This document shows, piece by piece, positions 3 through 11,496 of a stretch of DNA of 50,322 bases; within the stretch, counting starts at the first letter, position 1; each line of letters opens with the position of its first letter. The notes under the pieces were generated by a model. The model was not told where the DNA came from. It ran no database searches and saw only the letters and a list, made by a program, of their open reading frames with translations. Made by a program: the position numbers and the translations under genes. Source of the stretch: a virus; IMG/VR virus record IMGVR_UViG_3300010885_013193, positions 1 through 50,322 of that record. The stretch is one strand, 5' to 3'.

Positions 3-161
3 CTTCACGAAAGGCTTCCGCAAGGCATCGAGATCTCAGCCATTCGCTTTGCCATCCACGAACTGCGGCTAGGCGGGCACAAGTACGTCGCTGACAGGCT
101 GGCAGATTACGTGGAGCGGTGGAAGGGAAGAAGGGCCGCGACTGACCGCTGCGGAGTCTAG
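3..161 (+). CDS. C-terminal end of an unidentified protein (5' end outside window)
   Basis: An open frame enters from the left edge and ends at the TAG at 159-161, leaving 52 codons. The visible part is basic and helical (it contains GIEISAIRFAIHEL and ends in WKGRRAATDRCGV), but the family cannot be told. The first copy of the GCTGCGGAGTCT motif overlaps the last codons and the stop, the same gene-end position seen for later copies. Confidence 0.5.
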   Translation, partial: LHERLPQGIEISAIRFAIHELRLGGHKYVADRLADYVERWKGRRAATDRCGV

Positions 162-239
162 ATCGTAGCGGGGCTGGCATTGTCCACCCCGCCTCGACCT
201 GCACTCGCAGGCTACGCCCATCACAACTTCGTGGTGGGC
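148..239 (+). promoter_or_regulatory. Motif/hairpin leader 1
   Basis: Motif GCTGCGGAGTCT lies at 148-159. A hairpin lies at 216-239, with stem GCCCATCAC / GTGGTGGGC (one G-T pair) and loop AACTTC. A pyrimidine-rich stretch, the AAGGAGG ribosome site and the ATG at 270 follow. It is the first member of a family of similar leaders in the first 6 kb. The function (promoter, attenuator or mRNA processing) is inferred only from position. Confidence 0.55.
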
Positions 240-269
240 ATTGTCGTTTCTATCCCGAAGGAGGTTCTC

Positions 270-500
270 ATGTCCGCTGCTATCACCAACGTCCGCAACA
301 GTCGCAATGTCACTGAGGCTGTCGTGTTCCCTGCTCGTGACGGGTTCTGGTTTCTCGACGCCCGGAGCGATGCACCGCCGGTCGGCCCCTTCCCCACACG
401 CGAACGTGCGGAAGCGTCCGCCGATGTGAATGTCGAGATCGACCGTGAGATCGACCGTATCCTCACGCCGAAGCCGCTGGCCTCCCGCAACCTGCGGTAG
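270..500 (+). CDS. Small hypothetical protein, 76 aa
   Basis: The ATG at 270 follows an AAGGAGG site, so it is preferred over the in-frame start at 180, which lies upstream of the leader hairpin. The protein has no signal or membrane segment. Its middle reads DGFWFLDARSDAPPVGPFPT and its C-terminal half is charged and probably helical. I do not recognise the family. It is the first complete gene of the early plus-strand series and has its own motif/hairpin leader. Confidence 0.6.
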   Translation: MSAAITNVRNSRNVTEAVVFPARDGFWFLDARSDAPPVGPFPTRERAEASADVNVEIDREIDRILTPKPLASRNLR

Positions 501-514
501 ACAGGAGCCACACC

Positions 515-703
515 ATGATCGTCAAGGTCGAGAACTGCTACTGCGGACACGATAGGTTTCGGTTCCGACTCACCCTCCCTGATGGGAAACGCGAGTTCGT
601 TCCGGGACGCACGTGGACGCGAGCCACAGCCGCAGACGCACTCAACGTGCTTGAGCGTGTCTACGGATTCCGTCGTTGTTCAATCCGCTTTCGGCACGTT
701 TAG
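515..703 (+). CDS. Small hypothetical protein, 62 aa
   Basis: The ATG at 515 follows an ACAGGAG site 14 bases after the previous stop, so the two genes are probably co-transcribed. The protein is basic, with an N-terminal NCYCGHDRFRFRLTLPDGK and several Arg-Phe pairs. It may be a small beta-rich binding protein, but no family is recognised. The next motif/hairpin leader starts three bases after its stop. Confidence 0.55.
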   Translation: MIVKVENCYCGHDRFRFRLTLPDGKREFVPGRTWTRATAADALNVLERVYGFRRCSIRFRHV

Positions 704-705
704 CC

Positions 706-765
706 GCTGCGGAGTCTGACTTTTGTGAACGGGGCTAGTCGTCATCGTGGCGGCTGGCCCCGTTC
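706..765 (+). promoter_or_regulatory. Motif/hairpin leader 2
   Basis: Motif at 706-717. A 9-bp perfect stem, GAACGGGGC (727-735) with GCCCCGTTC (757-765), encloses a loop that can form a smaller stem. An ACAGGAG site and the ATG at 787 follow. Regulatory role inferred from recurrence. Confidence 0.55.
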
Positions 766-786
766 GCGTTTCCCACAGGAGTGGCA

Positions 787-990
787 ATGCCCACTGCAAC
801 AAAGCCCCCCGTCTATTCGGTCTGCCTCACACGGCAGCAGTTGTCCGCAGTACGTGACGGCCTGCGATGGTGGCACAAAGACTGCTCCACGCCAGAGGTG
901 GCAGATCAGTACCGCCAGAGCGTGTACGACGCACTGCAAAGAGTTCACGCAATCCTGCTCGATGCGGGTGGAGTGGACGACACGAAGTAG
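787..990 (+). CDS. Small hypothetical protein, 67 aa
   Basis: The ATG at 787 is chosen over a GTG at 781 because the ACAGGAG ribosome site sits at the usual distance from it. The sequence looks like a short helical domain (LTRQQLSAVRDGLRWW and a C-terminal DALQRVHAILLDAG). No catalytic or metal motif is visible. The family is not recognised. Confidence 0.6.
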   Translation: MPTATKPPVYSVCLTRQQLSAVRDGLRWWHKDCSTPEVADQYRQSVYDALQRVHAILLDAGGVDDTK

Positions 991-1003
991 CGGCGGAATC
1001 CCC

Positions 1004-1045
1004 GCTGCGGAGTCTTGATTCTGACCGGCGGCACGTTGCCGTCGG
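1004..1045 (+). promoter_or_regulatory. Motif/hairpin leader 3
   Basis: Motif at 1004-1015. Hairpin at 1025-1045 with stem CCGGCGGCA / TGCCGTCGG (one G-T pair) and a 3-base loop. It is followed by a pyrimidine-rich run, a GAGGAG site and the ATG at 1078. Confidence 0.55.
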
Positions 1046-1077
1046 CTGTCCCTTGTCCCTGTTTCTGAGGAGTTCCC

Positions 1078-1242
1078 ATGTCCACGCAGAACCAACTGCC
1101 CCACACCCTGCACTTCATCCGCCTCGACAACGCGGCGAAGCAACTAGGGGCACAGTCGAAGCGTCAGTTCCTGTCCGATCTTCGCACGCTCACCCATCGT
1201 GAGCGCCGTGAAGTGGCCGACCTCGTGAAGAAGGAGGGCTGA
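1078..1242 (+). CDS. Small hypothetical protein, 54 aa
   Basis: ATG after GAGGAG, TGA at 1240-1242. The product is basic and helical, ending HRERREVADLVKKEG. No family is recognised. The AAGGAGG near its 3' end serves as ribosome site for the next gene, which starts three bases after the stop, so translation of the two is probably coupled. Confidence 0.6.
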   Translation: MSTQNQLPHTLHFIRLDNAAKQLGAQSKRQFLSDLRTLTHRERREVADLVKKEG

Positions 1243-1245
1243 TTC

Positions 1246-1467
1246 ATGCCGCACTTCTTGGTCACACGCGATCGCGCCTACTGGGTGCGAGAGGTGATGC
1301 ACATAGACGCCGCGACAAAGGAAGACGCGGAGGATCAGTTCTACGACCACTTCGATCCTGAAGTGGTAATCGTGGAGCCATTCCGTTTCGGCAACTCGAC
1401 ACACGAAACCCCGCTTGAAGTGACTGCGTGCGATCCGCCCGCCCCGCCCGCTGCGGAGCCTGACTGA
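1246..1467 (+). CDS. Small hypothetical protein, 73 aa
   Basis: The ATG at 1246 follows an AAGGAGG site. The N-terminal half resembles a small alpha/beta fold (HFLVTRDRAYWVREV, then DAATKEDAEDQFYDHFD), as in short phage proteins of unknown role. The tail is Pro/Ala rich. That tail is encoded by a variant copy of the repeated motif at 1450-1461 (GCTGCGGAGCCT), so the motif has become part of the coding sequence here. The stop overlaps the next start as TGATG. Confidence 0.6.
   Translation: MPHFLVTRDRAYWVREVMHIDAATKEDAEDQFYDHFDPEVVIVEPFRFGNSTHETPLEVTACDPPAPPAAEPD
1450..1461 (+). repeat. Variant motif copy inside coding sequence
   Basis: GCTGCGGAGCCT differs from the consensus at one base and encodes the Ala-Ala-Glu-Pro end of the 73-residue protein. 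It has no following hairpin, and the next start codon overlaps directly. Confidence 0.4.
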
Positions 1468-1592
1468 TGGGCACCAAGTGGAACGATCAGTGGTGGTCAC
1501 TGGTCAAGGCTAGTCGCGTCAAGGAGGAGCAACGTCTGCGGGTGGCACGCCAGAAGTTGAAGCGTGCATCCCGACGCAAGGTGCAGCGGTGA
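1467..1592 (+). CDS. Very small basic protein, 41 aa
   Basis: The ATG at 1467 overlaps the preceding TGA. The product is short and strongly basic, with many Arg and Lys in its last 25 residues (it ends KRASRRKVQR), which suggests nucleic-acid binding. No family is recognised. The start overlap and an uninterrupted frame to a stop just before the next leader support it as a real gene. Confidence 0.45.
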   Translation: MGTKWNDQWWSLVKASRVKEEQRLRVARQKLKRASRRKVQR

Positions 1593-1599
1593 AGTAGCC

Positions 1600-1660
1600 G
1601 CTGCGGAGTCTGGTTTTTACAGGGCCATCCCATTTCGGGGTGGCCTTTTTCTTTTCCTGA
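1600..1660 (+). promoter_or_regulatory. Motif/terminator-like leader 4 (upstream of the amidoligase)
   Basis: Motif at 1600-1611. Strong hairpin with stem GGCCATCCC (1623-1631) / GGGGTGGCC (1637-1645), followed by a T-rich tract from 1646, the layout of a rho-independent terminator. A GAGGAGG site and the ATG at 1671 follow at once, so a terminator here would act as a leader attenuator. It is nearly the same as the leader at 3890-3950. Confidence 0.6.
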
Positions 1661-1670
1661 GGAGGACGGC

Positions 1671-2960
1671 ATGTCCACAGAGAACGAAGTCCAGATCGAG
1701 TACGACGTTTACGGCTTCTCCCGCAACGGCATCCATCGTGACACGGGCACGGAGTATGGCCCGGATGGGTTCAACCGCTACGGCTTCAACGAGGAAGGCT
1801 ACGACCGCTCCGGGTACGACGAGAACGGGTACGACCGCAGTCGATTCGATGAAGACGGATGGCACGAGGAAGGATGGCACCGTGACACGCACACGGAGTT
1901 CTCCCCCAACAGACGCACTCGTGATGGCTCACGCTACAACGACAGTGGCTACGACGCGGACGGATACGACTCCGATGGCATAGACGAGGATGGGTTCTAC
2001 CGTGATGGGTATAACGACGACGGCGAGGATCGCAACGGCTTCAGTCGCTGCGATAACGGCGACTGCGACGATGAGTATTGCTCATGCCGCAACGCTGGCT
2101 GCGATGAACTGCTCGACTCCTGTGCGTGCGTTCTTGAGGAGACTGGCTGGCAGAGGCACGCCTACCGTCGCACCTCACCGACGATAGCGTTCGAGTTCGA
2201 GTGCATCTCCTATTCGACAGCGAACGAAGCACGCGGTCGTCTTCTCAATGCCTACAACCCGGCATACGAGGAACTTGTATGCAAAACAAGCACCGGCGAT
2301 GGTGCCATCTGCAAGCAGGACGGATCTCTTCCCGACACTGGCGTCGAGTTCGTCACGGTGCCGATGTTTCTCGACGAGCATAGGTCTGTGCTGAGAAAGG
2401 CTTTCCGCAACAAGTTCGGTGACGGCTCCGTATCCTCGTGGAACCACACCAAGTGCGGGATGCACGTGCATCTTGCTCGCACCAGCCTGTCGAACCTGAC
2501 GCTGGGCAAGATGCTGTGCTTCATGCACCAGCCAGCCAATGTGCCGTTCCACGTTGCGATTGCTGGTCGCCAGAGTACGTACGCTCAGTTCGTGCATCAC
2601 CGCAGTGCCGTCAGCACTGGCCTGCCAGACAAGGCAGGGAGGGGAGACAAGTATTCGGCACTCAATGTCAAGCCCTACACCGTTGAGTTCCGCATCTTCC
2701 GCCCGTCGTGCAAGTTCGAGACGCTGCTCAAGAACCTGTGCTACTGCCTTGCGGTGCGTGACTTTTGCAGGCAGTCGTCCCTTGACTACCGCGCTTTGAG
2801 TGCGAGTGCGTTCCTGCTGTGGCTTGGCACGACCGACGCTCGCCGCACGTACCGCGAACTCGACGCTTGGTTGCGTGAATCGGACAGCGATTACGGACGG
2901 TCCTATCTGGCGACTGCCCTGCCCGTGCCGAAGCCGAAGCCCGCTCCCGTTGTTGCCTGA
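1671..2960 (+). CDS. Amidoligase-like enzyme with N-terminal acidic pentapeptide repeats, 429 aa
   Basis: Residues about 14-124 are tandem five-residue units of the form D-x-x-G-Y/F, such as DRSGY, DENGY, DADGY and DEDGF. Residues 127-153 hold seven cysteines that could bind metal. Residues about 172-395 look like the glutamine-synthetase-fold amidoligase family (Amidoligase_2 type): FEFECISY, KQDGSLPDTGVEFV, CGMHVHLA and VKPYTVEFRIFRPS. Family members are predicted to use ATP to join an amine to a carboxylate. The next gene is a class II glutamine amidotransferase, which could supply ammonia or swap an amide. Substrate unknown; the acidic repeats may be a substrate of the enzyme itself, which is inference. 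The start at 1671 has a GAGGAGG site. Family call fairly sure, biological role open. Confidence 0.75.
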   Translation: MSTENEVQIEYDVYGFSRNGIHRDTGTEYGPDGFNRYGFNEEGYDRSGYDENGYDRSRFDEDGWHEEGWHRDTHTEFSPNRRTRDGSRYNDSGYDADGYDSDGIDEDGFYRDGYNDDGEDRNGFSRCDNGDCDDEYCSCRNAGCDELLDSCACVLEETGWQRHAYRRTSPTIAFEFECISYSTANEARGRLLNAYNPAYEELVCKTSTGDGAICKQDGSLPDTGVEFVTVPMFLDEHRSVLRKAFRNKFGDGSVSSWNHTKCGMHVHLARTSLSNLTLGKMLCFMHQPANVPFHVAIAGRQSTYAQFVHHRSAVSTGLPDKAGRGDKYSALNVKPYTVEFRIFRPSCKFETLLKNLCYCLAVRDFCRQSSLDYRALSASAFLLWLGTTDARRTYRELDAWLRESDSDYGRSYLATALPVPKPKPAPVVA

Positions 2961-2998
2961 GTCTCACTTCTATCCCTAACTACACAGGAGAATCCTTC

Positions 2999-3883
2999 AT
3001 GTGCCTCGCAATCTACAAGCCCGCCGATACAGCCGCCGACTGGACTGCCTACGAGAACGGATACGCAGACAACCCGCACTCGTGGGGGTTCGCTGCCATT
3101 GTCGATGGTCAACTCGTGACCCGCTGCGGCATCGGCACGTTCGCTGAGTTCCGCTCTGCGTTCGAGCCGCACGCCAACTGCAAGGCGATCATCCACTTCC
3201 GATTCGCCACGCACGGCAGCAAGACGGAGGCCAACTGCCATCCGTTCCTCGTCGCAAGCGATCTTGCCGTCATTCACAACGGCATCATCGACATCAAGTG
3301 CAACGTCCACTCAGACCGCTCTGATACGTGGCATTTCAATGAGTTGATTCTCAAGCCACTTCACCAGCGTGACCCGGACTTCTTCGTGCGTCCAGAGATT
3401 CGGTACACACAGCAGTTAGCCCATCGTGGCAGCAAGTTCGTGTTCCTGCGGGCCGATGGCACGCACGACATCTGGGCTGAGAGCGACGGATGCTGGGAGA
3501 AAGACGGCCACTGGTACAGCAACACGGGCTACAAGTACAGCCGCGTTGCGTACTACACCGCCAGCAATTCGTCCGGTTCAGCGAGCCGGTCGATGTCGTG
3601 CCATCGTGACCTGTCGCCTACCGACTTAGACGACACGCCGATCATGACGAAGCATGAGGTGACGTTCGACCTTGAGGCTGACACTCGTGACCTCGTGAGA
3701 GAGTACGACTACGAGCAGGGGTCGATGTTGCGTGACCCGTACGAGTACGACGAACTCTCCTCGCCAAGCCTTGAGGAGATCGCCCAGTTGCTTCTCGACT
3801 ACGGGTATTCCGAAGCCGTACTCAAGGAGGTGTACGACATCGGTGGCAAGTTCGGGCTGGAGTCTCTGGCAGAAACCCTTTGA
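2999..3883 (+). CDS. Class II (Ntn-type) glutamine amidotransferase, 294 aa
   Basis: The protein begins Met-Cys, giving the N-terminal cysteine nucleophile after Met removal (MCLAIYKP). The family signatures follow in order: HSWGFAAI (27-34), HFRFATHG (66-73), NCHPF (79-83) and HNGII (93-97). These enzymes release ammonia from glutamine and pass it to a partner or fused synthase. No synthase domain is fused here, and the C-terminal 190 residues are not recognised. The gene follows the amidoligase after 38 bases with its own ACAGGAG site, so the two probably work together. After it comes the second copy of the motif/terminator-like leader. Confidence 0.8.
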   Translation: MCLAIYKPADTAADWTAYENGYADNPHSWGFAAIVDGQLVTRCGIGTFAEFRSAFEPHANCKAIIHFRFATHGSKTEANCHPFLVASDLAVIHNGIIDIKCNVHSDRSDTWHFNELILKPLHQRDPDFFVRPEIRYTQQLAHRGSKFVFLRADGTHDIWAESDGCWEKDGHWYSNTGYKYSRVAYYTASNSSGSASRSMSCHRDLSPTDLDDTPIMTKHEVTFDLEADTRDLVREYDYEQGSMLRDPYEYDELSSPSLEEIAQLLLDYGYSEAVLKEVYDIGGKFGLESLAETL

Positions 3884-3889
3884 TCCTTC

Positions 3890-3950
3890 GATGCGGAGTC
3901 TGGCTTTTGTTGGGCCATCCCAGTGCGGGGTGGCCTTGTTCTTTTTCACA
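3890..3950 (+). promoter_or_regulatory. Motif/terminator-like leader 5 (near-copy of leader 4)
   Basis: Motif variant GATGCGGAGTCT at 3890-3901. The hairpin stem GGCCATCCC (3913-3921) / GGGGTGGCC (3927-3935) is identical to that of leader 4, and is followed by a T-rich tract and an AAGGAG site. Together the two leaders bracket the amidoligase and amidotransferase genes. Confidence 0.6.
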
Positions 3951-3961
3951 AGGAGTTTGAC

Positions 3962-4525
3962 ATGCGTTTCTTTACCAACTGGATTGAGTCCATCGTTCGT
4001 GGTTGTGTGCGTGAGTGCCTGTTCGATTCTGCTGACGCTCGACAGTTGTTCGCCAACACGGTGTCGGCGGAAGTGGCACAGGCGATGCGTGATGTTGCCT
4101 GCACGCCAGAGCAGATGTCCTCTCACTTGGACTACCGGAAGTTAGCGGAGAAGGTGGCTGTCGATGAGGTGGCCCGATACGTGGATATTGTTCGACTCTC
4201 CGACATCGTGGCGGATAACGTGGAGATCGACAGCAGCGACATCGCCACCCGCGTGGCACGCAACCTCGACATGGATGATGTCGCGTCACATGTCGCAGAC
4301 GAGATCGACATGGGGCAGGTGTGCGAGCAGTGCGCTGAGAAGATAGAGGTAGATGAGGATGCTGTAGTCGAGCGTGCCGCAGAGATTGCGGCAGAGAACG
4401 TGGACAACGACGAGGTGGCGGCGAAGGTGGCAGAGAACATCGACTGGGAGGCTGACGTTCTCGACTACGAGACTCTTGCGAAGGCGTTGCTCGCGTGCTT
4501 CGCAAAGTCCGTCACCAAGTCCTGA
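3962..4525 (+). CDS. Acidic protein built of 13-residue repeats, 187 aa
   Basis: The ATG at 3962 follows AAGGAG; the in-frame start at 3923 lies inside the leader hairpin and is rejected. Residues about 57-165 repeat a roughly 13-residue unit of the form D-x-D-[DE]-V-A-x-x-V-A-x-x-I. Examples are DMDDVASHVADEI, DMGQVCEQCAEKI and DNDEVAAKVAENI. The regular spacing of Val/Ala/Ile with acidic caps suggests short helices forming a rod or scaffold. I do not recognise the family. Strongly acidic; could act as a binding scaffold or DNA mimic, which is speculation. Confidence 0.65.
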   Translation: MRFFTNWIESIVRGCVRECLFDSADARQLFANTVSAEVAQAMRDVACTPEQMSSHLDYRKLAEKVAVDEVARYVDIVRLSDIVADNVEIDSSDIATRVARNLDMDDVASHVADEIDMGQVCEQCAEKIEVDEDAVVERAAEIAAENVDNDEVAAKVAENIDWEADVLDYETLAKALLACFAKSVTKS

Positions 4526-4532
4526 GTTTACC

Positions 4533-4562
4533 GATGCGGAGTCTTAGTTGCAGGGAGGCAAC
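4533..4562 (+). promoter_or_regulatory. Motif with ribosome site inside a hairpin loop (leader 6)
   Basis: Motif variant GATGCGGAGTCT at 4533-4544. A short hairpin, GTTGC (4547-4551) / GCAAC (4558-4562), holds AGGGAG in its loop four bases before the ATG at 4566. The ribosome site is therefore presented in a loop, unlike the other leaders. Confidence 0.45.
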
Positions 4563-4565
4563 GAC

Positions 4566-4661
4566 ATGCACAATCAGTGGACGCACGCGGAGATCGAACT
4601 GTACCTGCTCATGTTGCTGGTGTTCATGCGGGCACTTGCAAGATGGGCCAATCTCAACTGA
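4566..4661 (+). CDS. Tiny hydrophobic protein, 31 aa
   Basis: The ATG at 4566 is preceded by GGGAGG in a hairpin loop; TGA at 4659-4661. About 14 central residues are hydrophobic (LYLLMLLVFMRALA), which is short for a membrane span but possible. No family is recognised. It is probably real because of its leader and the ribosome site that follows for the next gene. Confidence 0.45.
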   Translation: MHNQWTHAEIELYLLMLLVFMRALARWANLN

Positions 4662-4673
4662 AGGAGGAACGAC

Positions 4674-4829
4674 GTGACAATCGCTGAACTCATTGCTGCC
4701 GTTCAAGTAGTCGCACCCCACGCCCTGTTCGACGAAGCACCGGACGGGGAAGTCATCGTCTATACGGGGCTGGCTGCACCCGATGACGCTGACTGGGATC
4801 GAGGCGACAGTCCACTCAAACCATTGTAG
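4674..4829 (+). CDS. Small acidic hypothetical protein, 51 aa
   Basis: GTG start at 4674 after AAGGAGG, TAG at 4827-4829. The product is acidic, especially its C-terminal half (APDDADWDRGD). No family is recognised. Placed by its strong ribosome site and by filling the gap between the genes on either side. Confidence 0.5.
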   Translation: MTIAELIAAVQVVAPHALFDEAPDGEVIVYTGLAAPDDADWDRGDSPLKPL

Positions 4830-4843
4830 AGAAAGGTGTACTC

Positions 4844-5035
4844 ATGTATATTACTAGCCCTCGTCCAATTCCAACTGCGTCCCTCACCCTGACCCCACGC
4901 GAACTCGATCTCGTCGTGCAATCGCTGGGCGATTCCGCTGCGGAGTCTCACGAGTGGGGCGACGAACAGGCCGTCGAGTGGCGGCTGCTTCAACGCAAGT
5001 TCATCAAGGCCCACAACAAACTCATCACTCACTAG
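4844..5035 (+). CDS. Small hypothetical protein, 63 aa
   Basis: ATG at 4844 after a weak GAAAGG site. The sequence TPRELDLVVQSLGDSAAE, then WRLLQRKFIKAHNKL, looks like two amphipathic helices. An exact copy of the repeated motif (4937-4948) is read as Ala-Ala-Glu-Ser in the middle of the protein. No family is recognised. The next gene starts eight bases after its stop. Confidence 0.55.
   Translation: MYITSPRPIPTASLTLTPRELDLVVQSLGDSAAESHEWGDEQAVEWRLLQRKFIKAHNKLITH
4937..4948 (+). repeat. Exact motif copy inside coding sequence
   Basis: GCTGCGGAGTCT is identical to the leader motif but lies in frame within the 63-residue gene, with no hairpin after it. Its presence inside a gene suggests either an insertion that became coding or a protein-independent role in the nucleic acid. 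Confidence 0.4.
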
Positions 5036-5043
5036 GAGAACCC

Positions 5044-5916
5044 ATGACCCCTTCCACTCTCACTGTCGGTGCCCGCTCCGGTGGCGTGTGCATCCTGAAC
5101 ACACGCTCCTGCCTGCGGGATACCGTTCACGCAGCAGCCGACGCTGTAGGTGCAGGCAAGTACGTACCGCAGCGACCGGCTGTCACTACCACCCTGCGAC
5201 TTGCTATGCAGGAGATCGGCAACGGACTGTACGGCAAGAAGCGCAAGCAGCCCATCGTCCCTCGACACATTGACGACAATGCGTTCGAGTGCGTGCGGGT
5301 TGTGCCGACCAGCGACCGCAACGAGTACCACCACCTGTTCAGTGCCAGCATTGACAGGCAGTGGAACGTGACGGTGCTTGCCCACAACCATGACCACAAC
5401 GGGTACATGGTGCAGACTGCACTCGACAATGCCATCGTCCAGTTGCGTGACTATCTCCCCGCCCCTGTCGTATCACAGGTGACGGTGCGTATCCTGCAAT
5501 CTTGGAAAGCCATGTCGATGTCAGAGCAGGGAGGCGTGTGGTTCCTTGCCGACGATCACCTCGACAACTACCGGGAGTACGCTCGCATCCTGCGGGGTGC
5601 GAACAACAACGGCCCACGCCTCACGCTCACCACGTTCAGCATCGACAGCAATCCCGACACTGTGGAGCAGGTGCTTTCTCAGGTGCGGGATACCGTCAAG
5701 GCTGGCGTCGAGGAGATCATGCGTGACGTGCTGGAGGCAACCGGCGGAATGAACGACCGCTCGATCAACGTGCGTATCGCTCGTGCCAACAAGTTGCTTG
5801 CTCTGGTCGAGCAGTACCAGTCCCTGACGGGCATCTCCATGCCTGAGTTGACGGACGCCATTGAGCAGTGCAAGCAGGCCGTCGCAGTGAACCGGCTGCT
5901 TGCCACGTCCATCTAG
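5044..5916 (+). CDS. Hypothetical protein, 290 aa, likely partner of the MoxR module
   Basis: The ATG at 5044 follows AGGAG and is preferred to the upstream in-frame start at 4954, which overlaps the previous gene. No known motif was seen. Residues about 180-290 are mostly helical with a coiled-coil-like character (DTVKAGVEEIMRDVLEA, then ANKLLALVEQYQSLTG). Phage genes of this size with no recognised domain commonly precede a MoxR ATPase gene; that is a context argument only. A motif/hairpin leader separates it from the ATPase. Confidence 0.65.
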   Translation: MTPSTLTVGARSGGVCILNTRSCLRDTVHAAADAVGAGKYVPQRPAVTTTLRLAMQEIGNGLYGKKRKQPIVPRHIDDNAFECVRVVPTSDRNEYHHLFSASIDRQWNVTVLAHNHDHNGYMVQTALDNAIVQLRDYLPAPVVSQVTVRILQSWKAMSMSEQGGVWFLADDHLDNYREYARILRGANNNGPRLTLTTFSIDSNPDTVEQVLSQVRDTVKAGVEEIMRDVLEATGGMNDRSINVRIARANKLLALVEQYQSLTGISMPELTDAIEQCKQAVAVNRLLATSI

Positions 5917-5934
5917 TTTCCCCCGTAGTTTCCC

Positions 5935-5974
5935 GCTGCGGAGTCGGTATTCTGAGGGGGCAGCGTTGCCCCCT
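5935..5974 (+). promoter_or_regulatory. Motif/hairpin leader 7 (upstream of the AAA+ ATPase)
   Basis: Motif variant GCTGCGGAGTCG at 5935-5946. Perfect 8-bp stem AGGGGGCA (5955-5962) / TGCCCCCT (5967-5974) with loop GCGT, then a pyrimidine run, a GAGGAG site and the ATG at 6003. It is the last copy seen; genes after 7.1 kb lack the motif. Confidence 0.55.
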
Positions 5975-6002
5975 CGTCCCTTTCTATATGAGGAGTTTTC
6001 CT

Positions 6003-7106
6003 ATGGCTCGTACCACTCTTGGCAACAGCCCTGCGTTCCTTGCCTGTCAGGTCACGCCCACCCTCGTGCGTGGCGGAACAGGCGTCGGCAAGTCCTCCAC
6101 GTGGGAGGCACTCGCTGCTGCACTGGGCAGGACATTCGTGCCCCTGCTTGGTGCCACCCACCTGCCCGAAGATTTCTCTGGCTATCCCACGCCAGACCAC
6201 AAGGCACAGGTCACTCGCATGATGGCCTCGTCGTGGGTCGTCAAGACCCGCGACGGCAAGGCACTCGTCCACGTTGACGAGGTGACGAACGTAGCACCCG
6301 CCACTCAAGCGGGCCTGCTCTCAGTCATCTCTGAGCGGCGTGTCGGTGACGAGGTGATGCCTGAGTCCACCATCGTAGTGGGTTCGTGCAACCCGCCTGA
6401 ACTGTGCCCCAATGCAGTGCCGCTGTCGCCTGCCATGCGGGCACGGTTCTTCCACCACGACTGGGTTGTGGACTACGACCACTGGTTTGCTGGCCTGCGG
6501 GCTGGCTGCGTGTGGACGGCACCGGAGTTCCCGATTGTCCCGTCGCACTGGACTGAGTTCCTCCCCAAGTTCGGCTCGCTTGTCGAGGCGTTCTTGCGTG
6601 CAGCACCTGACTGCCGTGAGAAGTTGCCGACCGATGACGAGACGATGAGTTTCCCCAACCCCCGCACGTGGACGTATCTTGCCAAGTGCTTCGCCGCTGC
6701 CGATGCGTGTGGCTACGAGCGGAAAGATCCCATGTTCAAGGCTCTCGCTCTTGGCTGCGTGGGAGAGGCAGTCGGCGGTGAGTTCCTGCGGTACGTCCAT
6801 CAGTTGGACTTGCTCGACCCGGAGTCGATCCTGTCCGGTGCGGCAACCTACACCTACGAGAAGCGGCCCGATGCCAACATTTGCCTGCTCACTGGTCTGG
6901 TGAAGGGGCTGCGGTCCAACTCCACGAAGGAGCGGTGGCTTGCCGCTTCCGATGCGTTCATTGAGATCGGCACGCATGAGATCGAGTCGTTCCTCATGCA
7001 GTTCAAGTCCTTCTGGCGTCCGGTCAAGGACGGTGGCGTTCGGCCCGATGGCTGGTCGCCCCCGAAGGATGTGCTTGCCAAGTTGATGGCACTGGTTCAG
7101 TCTTGA
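6003..7106 (+). CDS. MoxR-type AAA+ ATPase, 367 aa
   Basis: Walker A is GGTGVGKS at residues 24-31, Walker B LVHVDE at 88-93, a sensor-1-like Asn in VGSCNPPE at about 130, and a likely arginine finger in MRARF at about 145-149. MoxR ATPases work with VWA-domain partners to remodel or activate protein complexes, as in the RavA-ViaA and NorQ-NorD pairs. Here a VWA/metallopeptidase gene lies 0.7 kb downstream in the same run. The start at 6003 has a GAGGAG site; longer in-frame starts would run through the leader hairpin. The target of the module is unknown. Confidence 0.85.
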   Translation: MARTTLGNSPAFLACQVTPTLVRGGTGVGKSSTWEALAAALGRTFVPLLGATHLPEDFSGYPTPDHKAQVTRMMASSWVVKTRDGKALVHVDEVTNVAPATQAGLLSVISERRVGDEVMPESTIVVGSCNPPELCPNAVPLSPAMRARFFHHDWVVDYDHWFAGLRAGCVWTAPEFPIVPSHWTEFLPKFGSLVEAFLRAAPDCREKLPTDDETMSFPNPRTWTYLAKCFAAADACGYERKDPMFKALALGCVGEAVGGEFLRYVHQLDLLDPESILSGAATYTYEKRPDANICLLTGLVKGLRSNSTKERWLAASDAFIEIGTHEIESFLMQFKSFWRPVKDGGVRPDGWSPPKDVLAKLMALVQS

Positions 7107-7134
7107 TCCACACCCCCCTACTAAGGAGACACGC

Positions 7135-7428
7135 ATGTTCACAAACAGCGACGACTTCATGTCCGCAGGCAAGAAGGAAGTCCGGTTCTATCTGGACGAG
7201 ACTGAGTACCCACTCTCTGATTACGTCGCAGAGTGGGTCGAATGGAAGGCCGACCACAAGATCATCCACCGCACGTTGCGGTCGTTCGTCCCAAGCGACA
7301 CAGACCCGATGGCGGTGCGAGCGCAGATCATCGGAATGAACGGCGACGACACGCCGGTCTGGTTCATGGGTGCGCTGCGTCACCTGTGCGACCACCGCCC
7401 ACGTACGCAGAAGGAGGACGAAGCATGA
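7135..7428 (+). CDS. Hypothetical protein, 97 aa
   Basis: ATG at 7135 after an AAGGAG site. No known domain is seen. The sequence is a mixed alpha/beta pattern with several Trp residues (YVAEWVEWKADHKIIH, then VWFMGALRHLCDH). The stop overlaps the next start as ATGA, so the two are translationally coupled within the MoxR-VWA run. Confidence 0.6.
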   Translation: MFTNSDDFMSAGKKEVRFYLDETEYPLSDYVAEWVEWKADHKIIHRTLRSFVPSDTDPMAVRAQIIGMNGDDTPVWFMGALRHLCDHRPRTQKEDEA

Positions 7429-7853
7429 AGTGTTCTATCTGCAACAAAGAGATAGCCGTCAAGGAGGGCGGCTGGGATAGCGGCAACAACGCACAGCCAG
7501 TGAACGATGGTCGGTGTTGCGACGAGTGCAACGCTACGGTGGTGATACCCGCGCGTCTGGCTGAAGTGGGAGACAGGCAGGATTCGGACGAAGAGGAGCC
7601 GGAACACTGGCTCTACCTGCGGAACTGGCACGGATTCACCAGCGTTGTTAGCGAGGGAGAGAAGTGGTCGGTTGCGTATGAGATGACCGGGAAAACGGGC
7701 AGGCTGTTTGCCGCCGCTCCTTCCATGCTCACAACCCTGCGTGACTTGCGTAGGGAGATGAAGTCTGGCTCGATCCTTGATGCGGGAAACATCGAGGCGT
7801 GGATCAAGGAACTCGACACCGTTATTGCCAATGCGGAAGGGAGGGATGAATGA
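7425..7853 (+). CDS. Zinc-ribbon hypothetical protein, 142 aa
   Basis: The ATG at 7425 overlaps the previous stop and has AAGGAGG upstream. The N-terminus has two cysteine knuckles, CSICNKE and CCDECN, 28 residues apart, a likely zinc ribbon. A short acidic linker follows, then a domain with LYLRNWHGFTSV and a helical end. No function can be assigned. The stop overlaps the VWA gene start as ATGA. Confidence 0.65.
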   Translation: MKCSICNKEIAVKEGGWDSGNNAQPVNDGRCCDECNATVVIPARLAEVGDRQDSDEEEPEHWLYLRNWHGFTSVVSEGEKWSVAYEMTGKTGRLFAAAPSMLTTLRDLRREMKSGSILDAGNIEAWIKELDTVIANAEGRDE

Positions 7854-9301
7854 CACCACGACAACTACTGGGCCAAGCAAGGGTACATACCTTCGAGTAC
7901 GTACCCTACCTTGCGTCCTACATCTACAGCCTGCGTGAGCAGGAGACTCCGGGCATCGGCACTGCTGCCGTTGACCAAGCGGGCAACCTCTACTGGTGCC
8001 CGGAGTTCATCACCAAGATCGGCAAGGAACAGGGTGCATACGTCGTGGCCCACGAGGTATTGCACATCATCTACCAGCACCATGTACGAGCGAAGGAGAT
8101 CATCGGGGATCACCCGACTGAACTCCAGCGATACGTGTGCAATGTGGCTGGCGATCTTGTTGTCGAGCAGACGCTATCCATGATGCGGCACCTTCGACCA
8201 GAGGGTGCCATCCATCTGGGCAGCGACATCCCCAACTGGGGAATCAAGTTGAACTTTCCTGAGAACAAGTCGATGCAGGAATACTATCGACTCATCATGG
8301 AGAAGTTGCAGTCCAAGCACAAGCAGTCACAGAAAGGAGATAGCGATGGCAAAGGCGACAGTGAACGGAGTGCCGACAGAAGCGACGAACAGGGCGATTC
8401 AGGAGACGGCGCTGCTGATTCAAGTGATGGAAACGACGACGCCGACTTCATCCCCGAAGATGACGGCACTGAGGCGGATGGCAAGGGCACTCAGGCTGAC
8501 AGCGGAAAGGGGTCGCCTTCGAGTGGGAAGGGCAAGGCGCCGCCGCTGCCCTGTTCTCCGGGCAGTGGCGGCTCGTGTGCGGACGGTCAGCCACGCGAGT
8601 ATGAGGTAGATAACGACGGGTCATGGGAGACGTACGCAGAAGACATGGCCGCTGCCCAAGCGGAGGTAGCCATCGCGGAGTATGAGGAGTCACATCCCGG
8701 CAGTGTTCCGGGCCAGATCAAGCAAGCCCTCGACTGCAAACTGCGACCGCAACCTGACCCGTTCGATCAGTTGCGGTCTGCTGTTTGCACGAGCGTTGCC
8801 TCGCCGGTCGGTGGTCGTGACTTCTCGCACCGCCGCCGGTCCCGCAAGCAGCCGCCCGGAGAGGATGATCCGCTGCTGCATGGCCGCATCACAGTGCAGC
8901 CCCATGCAGTCGTGATCGTGGACACGTCGATGTCCATGATGACGAAGGACACGCAGGCTCGTGCCCTGTCAGTGATCGGTCAGGGTCTGCGGAAGTTGTC
9001 TCGTGTTCGCGTCTACTGCGCTGACACCCATGTCCGCTCGAACAAGTTGGTGGCACACACCCGCACGTTTGAGTGGGCCGGTGGCGGTGGCACAGACATG
9101 GCTCTGGCACTGGAAGAAGTTGATCGCCGCGACCATCCAGACTCCATCATCATCGTCACCGACGCTGAGACGGACTGGCCGACGAAGAGGCTGCACGCTC
9201 GTGTGGTCGTGGCCTACACAGGCAAGCGTGATTCGTACTACCACAAGTTGATACCCAAGTCCTATCGCACCGTTCCACTGGAAGGAGGGGCTAATGCCTA
9301 A
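7850..9301 (+). CDS. Metallopeptidase-like/VWA-domain protein, 483 aa (MoxR partner)
   Basis: The N-terminal part carries HEVLHIIYQHH from residue 68, an HExxH zinc motif typical of the predicted metallopeptidase half of DUF2201-type proteins. Residues about 160-240 are a low-complexity Ser/Asp/Gly linker. The C-terminal part is a VWA fold with a complete MIDAS: DTSMS (358-362), Thr415 in GGGTDM and Asp438 in VTDAE. Proteins of this plan are usually encoded with a MoxR ATPase, as here, and are thought to be chaperone-like adaptors. Whether the peptidase site is active is not known. Confidence 0.82.
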   Translation: MTPRQLLGQARVHTFEYVPYLASYIYSLREQETPGIGTAAVDQAGNLYWCPEFITKIGKEQGAYVVAHEVLHIIYQHHVRAKEIIGDHPTELQRYVCNVAGDLVVEQTLSMMRHLRPEGAIHLGSDIPNWGIKLNFPENKSMQEYYRLIMEKLQSKHKQSQKGDSDGKGDSERSADRSDEQGDSGDGAADSSDGNDDADFIPEDDGTEADGKGTQADSGKGSPSSGKGKAPPLPCSPGSGGSCADGQPREYEVDNDGSWETYAEDMAAAQAEVAIAEYEESHPGSVPGQIKQALDCKLRPQPDPFDQLRSAVCTSVASPVGGRDFSHRRRSRKQPPGEDDPLLHGRITVQPHAVVIVDTSMSMMTKDTQARALSVIGQGLRKLSRVRVYCADTHVRSNKLVAHTRTFEWAGGGGTDMALALEEVDRRDHPDSIIIVTDAETDWPTKRLHARVVVAYTGKRDSYYHKLIPKSYRTVPLEGGANA

Positions 9302-10148
9302 GACCATGAAGCAGCGTATCTACACCTATGGACAACTCGACACCATCCTGCACCGGCGTGGACAACACTTTCCGGGAGTCATCGACGCCACGTTGTATGG
9401 CAACGTGATCGTGCGTGCCATTGAGGGCCGACCTCACTTCATCATTCGCTATGACGGATCAAGGAACAACTACGTGATTGCCAATGTGGAATCTGTGGCT
9501 GGCGGCGACACGCTGTACTGCGTTGCCGGTGCCCCAAAGATGGTAATGGATGGCAGCGCTGCGGCACGCAAGCGGTGGCGTGCATGCGTGTCCGCGTTCA
9601 CGCCACGAGTGATCGCGGGCAGGACGCCGCCACTAAAGAAGGCAGAGTATTGGCGTGTCCGCGATGGCATTGCACGCCTGCTGCCAGCACCGGCACACAA
9701 CTATTCGCTGCTGCTTCCTCAGTGCAATCGACCGGCGATGAAAGAGTGGGCCAACCAAACAAGGTCACTGCACCTGCCACGATTCACGTCTAGGTCGAAG
9801 GCGTTCGCCGTCAATCTTCGCAAAGAACTTGACGGTCTGATGGGTGCGAAGATGCAACTGCTTCGCTATGGCGAGGGGATCGGGGCGTTCAAGGGTCGCA
9901 ACGGACTGCTTGTGCATGTGTGCCTGCCGCCAACGGAGACAACGAATTCACCCTCGCTCTGCGTTCTCACTACGCCGCACGACTCAGAGTCCCGGACGCA
10001 CTTCCACGTGGATGGTGACTACGGCATTCGCCACTCGCAGTTTGAGGGCAGGAGCGGAATGACCTACCTCCGCTGGCGCAGTGCGAAGGATGCCATCATC
10101 GGCATCAGAGAGTGGGTCATGTCCAACATCTACATTCCCGGAAACTAA
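9294..10148 (+). CDS. Hypothetical protein, 284 aa
   Basis: Starts eight bases inside the end of the VWA gene, with GGAGGGG upstream, so it belongs to the same transcript. No recognised motif. It is basic and looks like a mixed alpha/beta protein with a possible binding half (NGLLVHVCLPPTETT) and a C-terminal YGIRHSQFEGRSG. It could be a third component of the ATPase/VWA module, by position only. Confidence 0.65.
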   Translation: MPKTMKQRIYTYGQLDTILHRRGQHFPGVIDATLYGNVIVRAIEGRPHFIIRYDGSRNNYVIANVESVAGGDTLYCVAGAPKMVMDGSAAARKRWRACVSAFTPRVIAGRTPPLKKAEYWRVRDGIARLLPAPAHNYSLLLPQCNRPAMKEWANQTRSLHLPRFTSRSKAFAVNLRKELDGLMGAKMQLLRYGEGIGAFKGRNGLLVHVCLPPTETTNSPSLCVLTTPHDSESRTHFHVDGDYGIRHSQFEGRSGMTYLRWRSAKDAIIGIREWVMSNIYIPGN

Positions 10149-10339: not shown

Positions 10340-11048
10340 TACCAGCAAACAGACGCTCACCGAATCCCACCAGCGTGGCGTGTGCGAGGAGTACATCAAA
10401 CGCACGCTACTGCCAGAGGGCTGGGTGTTTGGGGGCTGGCTCTACGATGCAGCCACCAGCGGCAGCAAGCCGATGTTCGAGCGCGAGGAGGGCCGCAAGT
10501 TGTGGGCACTGGTGCAGCCCGGAGACAAGATCGTGTGGGCCAAGTTGGATCGGGCCTTCCGTTCGGTCATCGACGCCGCCCAGACTATGCACCTGTTGCA
10601 GCACAAGGACGTGTCGTTCAACTCGCTCGACTTGGGACTCGACACTAGCACACCCATCGGCAGGTGTGTGTTCACCATCCTTACTGCGTTTGCCGAACTC
10701 GAACTGGAGTTCATCAAGCAACGCACGCGGGACGGGTTGCTATCCAAGATCAAGGGCGGCAAGCCCCACAATCGCCACGCCCCGATTGGCTGGATGAAGA
10801 TAGGGAAGAAGAAGGATTCCTACTACATGCCAGACATAAACGAGCGGGCGCAGGTTGCGGTGATGACGGTGATGCGACAGTCAGGTGCGTCACTCGAACG
10901 CTTGACCTGCCACATGCGTCGAGTACGCAGGTCGAACGGCAAGGCGTGGAACATCAACTCCATCACCCGTGCCCTCAGGGCAGCAAGCCATCGCTTTCCA
11001 AAAGCGTTTGAAGAACGAACAAAGCGGCGGAAAGCCTGCGCCGTATAG
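10308..11048 (+). CDS. Serine site-specific recombinase (resolvase/invertase family), 246 aa
   Basis: The N-terminal catalytic domain has YGRAST with nucleophile Ser11 and Arg9, the DKIVWAKLDRAFRS segment that carries catalytic arginines, and the long E-helix (RCVFTILTAFAELELEFIKQ). The C-terminal region (about 150-246) is short and suggests a small helix-turn-helix DNA-binding part, so this is a resolvase/invertase-size enzyme, not a large serine integrase. Start ATG after AGGAG. Its last 74 bases overlap, tail to tail, the sigma factor gene on the other strand. A separate tyrosine integrase exists, so this one may resolve multimers or invert a segment. Confidence 0.85.
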   Translation: MPVVYAYGRASTSKQTLTESHQRGVCEEYIKRTLLPEGWVFGGWLYDAATSGSKPMFEREEGRKLWALVQPGDKIVWAKLDRAFRSVIDAAQTMHLLQHKDVSFNSLDLGLDTSTPIGRCVFTILTAFAELELEFIKQRTRDGLLSKIKGGKPHNRHAPIGWMKIGKKKDSYYMPDINERAQVAVMTVMRQSGASLERLTCHMRRVRRSNGKAWNINSITRALRAASHRFPKAFEERTKRRKACAV

Positions 11049-11496
11049 TTCGTGGGTCACAACCCGCCTGCTCCCCAATCTCCCGCAGGCTCATGCCCCG
11101 ATAGAAGCGGGCGTGAATCAACTTGCGGGACTTGGGTGGCAGGCGGGCGATGGCTACGTGCAGCCTGCCTGACAGCCCCTTCACTGTGACGGCCAATGCT
11201 TCGGCCAGTTCCATAGGCACACGATCCGGCGAGTCGTAGCGTGCCCTGCGATTCCGGTCTATCTCCTTGAGCAACGCATTCCTAACGGCCATAGAGAAGT
11301 ACGTTGTGATCTTGGACTGCTCCGGGTTGTACGTTCGAGACGCACGGCACACAGCCAGATAGGCTATGGACGTTACGTCTATGACGGCCAACTGCTTGCG
11401 GAGCGTGGGATAACGGCAGCGAAAGGCAGCAATCGCCTTCGGCACCACTTCTAGGGCACGCTCTGCCAGCCGCTGCTGTTCGTCCGTGAGTCGCAT
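10975..11496 (-). CDS. Sigma-70 family RNA polymerase sigma factor, 173 aa
   Basis: The protein is sized like a minimal sigma factor. Region 2-like sequence lies at about 39-85 (YNPEQSKITTYFSMAVRNALLKEI). Region 4 lies at about 117-165 with a helix-turn-helix (SLREIGEQAGCDPRTIRRR). Regions 1 and 3 are missing or very short. It would redirect host RNA polymerase to phage promoters. Candidate targets in the window are the CATAAAT-type sequences at 16019-16033 and 34967-34981, or the early-region motif. Last gene of its minus-strand run; ribosome site weak. Confidence 0.78.
   Translation of the reverse strand: MRLTDEQQRLAERALEVVPKAIAAFRCRYPTLRKQLAVIDVTSIAYLAVCRASRTYNPEQSKITTYFSMAVRNALLKEIDRNRRARYDSPDRVPMELAEALAVTVKGLSGRLHVAIARLPPKSRKLIHARFYRGMSLREIGEQAGCDPRTIRRRLSAALFVLQTLLESDGLLP

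Follow-up and report, generated by a model that had tools for sequence, protein, structure and literature searches.

A strict element repeated ahead of hairpin leaders on one arm of an uncultured phage genome is probably a phage-specific promoter

What kind of signal is repeated in front of the genes on the left arm of this phage genome, and which protein might read it? The window, i.e. the whole stretch of DNA that was analysed, is the 50,322-base record of an uncultured phage (IMGVR_UViG_3300010885_013193, positions 1-50,322), in which the genes of the left 11 kb are encoded on the + strand and the structural and replication genes on the - strand. The 12-base motif GMTGCGGAGTCT has exactly nine matches in the window at up to one mismatch, all on the + strand between 148 and 5946, compared to a mean of 0.70 and a maximum of 3 in dinucleotide shuffles. 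This is in agreement with the sequence-only reading, which had given all nine positions correctly and had noticed the motif nowhere else. With up to two mismatches, the remainder of the window is close to chance (20 matches, 11.5 expected). A single altered copy had been described, at 1450; this copy is indeed changed (GAGCCT), but so is the one at 5935 (GAGTCG), which had gone unmentioned.

Seven of the copies (148, 706, 1004, 1600, 3890, 4533 and 5935) are leader copies. As had been proposed, each of them follows shortly after an upstream stop codon and is succeeded by a leader and an ATG, whereas the stem that had been claimed for all seven is clear in six and is replaced at 4533 by a mini-hairpin around the ribosome site only. 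The first element (139-167, with GCTGCGGAGTCT at 148-159) opens a leader at 168-239 with hairpins at 168-192, 198-211 and 216-239, the last of which is terminator-like in relatives, and the ATG is found at 270. Element 2 (697-725, motif at 706-717) is followed by a hairpin at 725-767 (GTGAACGGGGC...GCCCCGTTCGC) and an ATG at 787, element 3 (995-1023, motif at 1004-1015) by a hairpin at 1022-1048 and an ATG at 1078. A hairpin together with a T-rich tract makes up the leaders of element 5 (1591-1619, motif at 1600-1611; leader 1621-1655, terminator score d=44; ATG of an amidoligase-like gene at 1671) and element 6 (3881-3909, GATGCGGAGTCT at 3890-3901; leader 3912-3947, d=18; ATG at 3962). Element 7 (4524-4552, GATGCGGAGTCT at 4533-4544) runs into the mini-hairpin GTTGC-AGGGAG-GCAAC (4547-4562), which holds the ribosome site in its loop, and element 9 (5926-5954, GCTGCGGAGTCG at 5935-5946) precedes a hairpin at 5953-5976 and the AAA ATPase gene, whose ATG is at 6003. 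All of these features are on the + strand.

The mini-hairpin stands in front of a gene for a 31-residue hydrophobic microprotein (4566-4661), and its stem varies yet pairs in the relatives (GTTGC/GCAAC, CATGC/GCATG, CACGC/GCGTG).

The remaining two copies, also on the + strand, are no leaders. The match at 4937-4948 is intragenic and is probably not an element at all, because it lies inside the open reading frame 4844-5035 and the copies of the relatives track the coding sequence (AAES). The copy at 1450-1461 (GCTGCGGAGCCT) is decayed; it is located at the end of one gene and overlaps the start of the next (TGATG; gene 1467-1592), and it is intact in the relatives L009, L010 and L025.

The AAA ATPase (6003-7106) served as the query for relatives and retrieved 27 loci in related contigs, in which genes were called mechanically. 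The element recurs in conserved form in about 25 contigs of related uncultured phages, and most relatives carry 6-15 copies on the same arm in the same orientation. A weight matrix applied to 28 records placed about 168 sites on the strand that encodes the genes and 0-1 on the opposite strand; the sites of related genomes are not independent, and percentages therefore describe the set and not separate events. The sequence-only reading had accepted that an absence of the motif from all close relatives would count against it; on inspection, the motif does occur in relatives, and this check did not refute the reading. Four near-complete relatives have no motif array on their opposite arm. Among IMG/VR loci with at least two exact matches to the 13-base core on one strand, we found this group, the divergent relative L125 (proteins 27-47% identical to those of the group) and L061, whose repeated matches were rejected as leaders and belong to a coding repeat. 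None of the INPHARED phage records matches the leader region, phage and plasmid collections gave no matches or remote ones only, and two scans of genome collections for a host revealed no relative.

Beside the array, the divergent region between the two arms (in L011 upstream of 1710, and at the same place in relatives) contains long conserved blocks, GAAAAAATCCAGGAGGGGAACGTAACT and TTCCGYTTCACGCTGTCGA, and is possibly an origin or an early promoter. As it holds these other conserved blocks, an extra upstream promoter is conceivable. In G003, the first motif copy lies directly 5' of the first gene of its arm and adjoins the divergent region.

Across the window and the relatives, the full element has the consensus RWTTYSCCGCTGCGGAGTCTGNNTTNTR. 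Counting the first G of GCTGCGG as position 0, positions -2 to 12 are almost invariant, -8 to -5 are A/T-rich, 15-18 are T-rich and a pyrimidine is followed by a purine at 18|19. The T-rich NNNTTNTG that had been noted behind the motif is real, with positions 12-19 reading G N N T T N T R (168 sites, window and relatives). The pyrimidine-purine step is present at 153 of 167 sites (92%), at adjacent offsets in 3-24%, and base 19 is an A at 26% of the sites. It was found at all nine copies of the window, with the T-rich stretch missing at 4937, and at 10 of 10 readable sites of the divergent relative L125. In contigs with only a chance 15-mer, it occurs in 55 of 122 cases, which is an upper bound since this chance set still includes some family fragments.

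Strong stems were obtained as the best stem in 73 of 114 unique leaders (64%), compared to 6% of shuffled leaders. Their 5' base lies mostly at 18-24 and hardly ever before 18; a first measure of the stem start from minimum-energy windows had been dominated by spurious outer pairs and was discarded. After the stem, the leaders continue with a pyrimidine tract, a ribosome site and the ATG. A covariation analysis, as the sequence-only reading had suggested, bore out the stem of the ATPase leader: 6 of its 12 pairs show compensated changes on both sides with pairing kept, although these may stem from few evolutionary events. At the ATPase locus of L009, motif and hairpin are lost jointly. Leaders also reassort, since from genome to genome a given hairpin leader can be found ahead of unrelated genes. 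One small gene has a terminator-less leader, and 12 of 13 genomes retain the motif here, just 5' of the ribosome site.

Based on these findings, a promoter with its start at position 19 is the simplest reading, because a fixed pyrimidine-purine step is preceded by a T-rich stretch, coincides with the start of the stems and is followed by a ribosome site downstream. Each leader copy is probably a promoter specific to the phage, and its transcript would carry a hairpin at the 5' end. The predicted starts in the window are 167 (A), 725 (G), 1023 (G), 1619 (A), 3909 (G), 4552 (A) and 5954 (G). Each copy would act as a single contiguous block, RWTTYSCCGCTGCGGAGTCTGNNTTNTR, with transcription starting at its final purine, 19 bases past the first G of GCTGCGG. 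The nascent RNA would open almost at once with a stable hairpin, probably protecting or shaping its 5' end, and would then present the pyrimidine tract, a strong ribosome site and the ATG. In this manner, the copies would lead consecutive small transcription units on one arm (148 to about 11 kb in the window). The strand bias, the position bias, the fixed step, the stems starting at this step and the presence of an ECF-type sigma factor all make a promoter the probable function as far as the sequence can tell. Moreover, the terminator-less leaders of one small gene keep the motif, which would be superfluous if the site served antitermination only.

Several observations speak against a promoter. 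A -35 element, which a normal ECF promoter requires, is not conserved; the conserved CCGCTGCGG is located where no known ECF sigma factor reads; terminator-like hairpins follow the motif, so that a plain promoter would tend to halt its own transcript; the divergent relative G022 has the sigma factor without a motif array; and the mini-hairpin of the 4533 leader begins 5' of the predicted start.

The gene for the sigma factor is located at 10975-11496 on the - strand, convergent with the motif arm. It encodes 173 residues with regions 2 and 4, and by profile the protein is nearest to ECF sigma factors of known structure. Of 24 family records, 22 gave a clear sigma match; G009 and G010, which make up the remainder, end before the sigma position and gave only a weak match to another HTH protein, so that every motif-bearing genome reaching the relevant end has one ECF-type sigma factor. 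The AlphaFold model of the protein (pLDDT 83.5, pTM 0.50) does match sigma factors, though its overall fit to them is loose (TM-score at most 0.36), which is to be expected if the two sigma domains are differently placed in the model. In G022, the sigma factor is kept (46% identity) and the motif array is absent.

ECF promoters are bipartite with a spacer of 16 +/- 1 bp, as in the ECF41 promoter TGTCACA-n16-CGTC (PMC3426412). The GTC core of the phage element, 99-100% conserved, lies at -11 to -9 relative to the predicted start and would thereby be placed like an ECF -10 element. This GTC/CGTC core is at the distance expected for an ECF promoter as measured from a predicted start only. Like ECF promoters, the element has this core some 8-11 bases 5' of the predicted start, and the phage encodes an ECF-type sigma factor; unlike them, it has no conserved -35 and carries the extra contiguous CCGCTGCGG just 5' of GTC. 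Across the family sites, there was no conservation where a -35 element would lie, 16 +/- 1 bp upstream. Hexamers of the sigma-70 type (like TTGACA-n17-TATAAT) are likewise missing at the sites; the one match in 13.5 kb lies on the other strand away from the leaders, and shuffles gave 3.8. Given a promoter, the position of the GTC core makes the phage ECF-type sigma factor, acting with the host RNA polymerase, the foremost candidate for the reader, an assignment that we make tentatively and with somewhat less than even confidence. The sequence-only reading had named this protein as one possible reader: the sigma factor exists and is a plausible reader, against which count the lack of a conserved -35 and the sigma factor of G022, which comes without an array.

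Single genomes can carry their own version of the motif, namely GATCCGG at 7 of 7 sites in L031, GATGCGG at 4 of 4 leader sites in G025, and GAGTCC in L023 and at most sites in L024. Such uniform variants within a genome fit a co-evolving reader, with homogenisation as a possible alternative cause. Substitutions in sigma region 4 that might track the variants were considered and set aside: L031 with its GATCCGG has a K in place of R/Q elsewhere, and there is no clear link, because R and Q vary without a change of the motif.

In promoters of the T7 gene 10 type, a contiguous strict block is followed by a 5' hairpin leader, a U-rich tract and a ribosome site. The phage element resembles them in its strict block, the AT-rich stretch before a purine start, the RNA 5' hairpin, the U-rich tract, the ribosome site and its several copies on one strand. 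It differs in being about 10 bp longer and in that a gene for a single-subunit RNA polymerase was not found: PF00940 had no match in 24 records, a search in which the control genomes were also silent, and the large proteins scanned gave no polymerase match, including a 1137-residue protein without sequence matches in Pfam, PHROG or PDB. On these grounds, a T7-like polymerase was set aside as a candidate reader. As a further candidate, a 284-residue protein (9294-10148) yielded a confident AlphaFold model (pLDDT 89) without a fold match in the PDB; it occurs in those motif-bearing genomes that were checked, and G022 lacks it.

The findings fit a signal that is unlike known types and private to these viruses. 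It might even represent a promoter class of its own, in which an ECF-like -10 and a dyad CCG-N3-CGG form one block without a -35, read by the phage sigma factor and a second factor, each promoter having its own 5'-terminal hairpin, which would act as an attenuator at some of the genes; such a reassorting promoter-attenuator cassette before many genes is an unlikely though reasonable conjecture.

The sequence-only reading had offered a promoter with a structured 5' UTR or an antitermination site. The former explains the data better, and the latter keeps standing because in about a fifth of the leaders a terminator-like hairpin separates the motif from the gene: 30 of 139 (22%) exceed the threshold of a standard terminator score, compared to 0.4% of shuffles. 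In five genomes, each of the 11 strong hairpins of this type that the motif strand carries is found downstream of a motif, at a distance of 16-65 nt, and none upstream of one; three high-scoring terminators are on the opposite strand. Since all strong hairpins of this kind on the motif strand directly follow the motif, attenuation or antitermination may operate in some leaders. The motif, as DNA or RNA, would then let RNA polymerase pass a hairpin terminator before the next gene, as nut, put or Q-like sites do, or, in a mixed form, a promoter would carry a built-in attenuator. Elemental pause signals also contain a pyrimidine-G step, which suits this explanation, whereas an A at base 19 in 26% of the sites suits a start better than a pause. 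The T-rich tail is absent from most leaders, the microprotein leaders keep the motif without a terminator, and few sites suffice for a processive system. In the lambda Q and HK022 put systems, an antitermination site lies ahead of a terminator-like hairpin and then genes, an order that is shared by the 22% of leaders; they differ from the phage array by its many copies, by the lack of a T-tract in most leaders and in that no nut or put sequence or known antiterminator was recognised. Altogether we consider antitermination or attenuation rather improbable, and the terminator-like hairpins are either U-rich leader features that resemble terminators or a sign that some units are attenuated.

Even less probable is an operator, at which a phage DNA-binding protein would block or gate transcription without any promoter activity of the site itself. 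The stoperators of cluster A mycobacteriophages are asymmetric, intergenic and in one orientation, with a lineage-specific consensus (PMC3029335). The phage motif shares these properties, being asymmetric, strict, in one orientation within short intergenic intervals and variable by lineage (L031, G025, L023 and L024). Stoperators go with an HTH repressor of their own that is related to L5 gp71, whereas the scans made here gave no repressor candidate; furthermore, a constant spacing to a start-like step and a hairpin is unexpected for an operator, as is the confinement of the copies to one arm. A similar arrangement is known from the SAS/ESAS of cluster K mycobacteriophages. These 13-bp repeats are asymmetric, share one orientation and precede the non-structural genes of one genome half; a spacing of 3-7 bp separates SAS from the start codon, and they include the ribosome site AGGAG (PMC3203893). 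Both are asymmetric one-orientation repeats before the genes of one arm, but the phage motif mostly lies 50-150 bases upstream, without the SAS spacing of 3-7 bp and AGGAG.

A post-transcriptional RNA element, i.e. a processing site or translation leader, is the most doubtful explanation: the stems covary and the leaders end in a ribosome site, but the motif itself shows no convincing covariation, no Rfam family gave a match, and no RNA role suggests itself for the pyrimidine-purine step or the T-rich stretch. For CCGCTGCGG as a possible RNA triloop hairpin, the variants point both ways: GCTGTGG keeps a wobble and TCTGCGG breaks the pairing.

If the element is a promoter, it would provide a predicted transcription map of one arm for an uncultured phage group, with starts to the base. 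If the phage ECF-type sigma factor reads it, this would be a -35-less promoter in a family for which bipartite promoters are the defining trait. The hairpin leaders would supply naturally paired promoters and 5' UTRs as parts, with terminator-like hairpins right behind start signals, and would bear on how phages balance initiation and early termination.

Some further features of these genomes were noted. The AAA ATPase adjoins a DUF2201/VWA protein (6003-9301); distant matches of the ATPase include several N4-like phages, which this phage does not otherwise resemble. Small proteins resembling LexA-type DNA-binding domains are encoded in the motif arm of L017 (8026-8367), L010 (6665-7120) and L025 (8346-8687). 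The 81.6-kb contig G008 carries a second, divergent set of structural genes at 60-81.6 kb, which comes either from the assembly of two phages into one contig or from a genuine duplication. Finally, the N-terminal part of the amidoligase-like protein (1671-2090) contains a run of short repeats, YDRSGYDENGYDRS...
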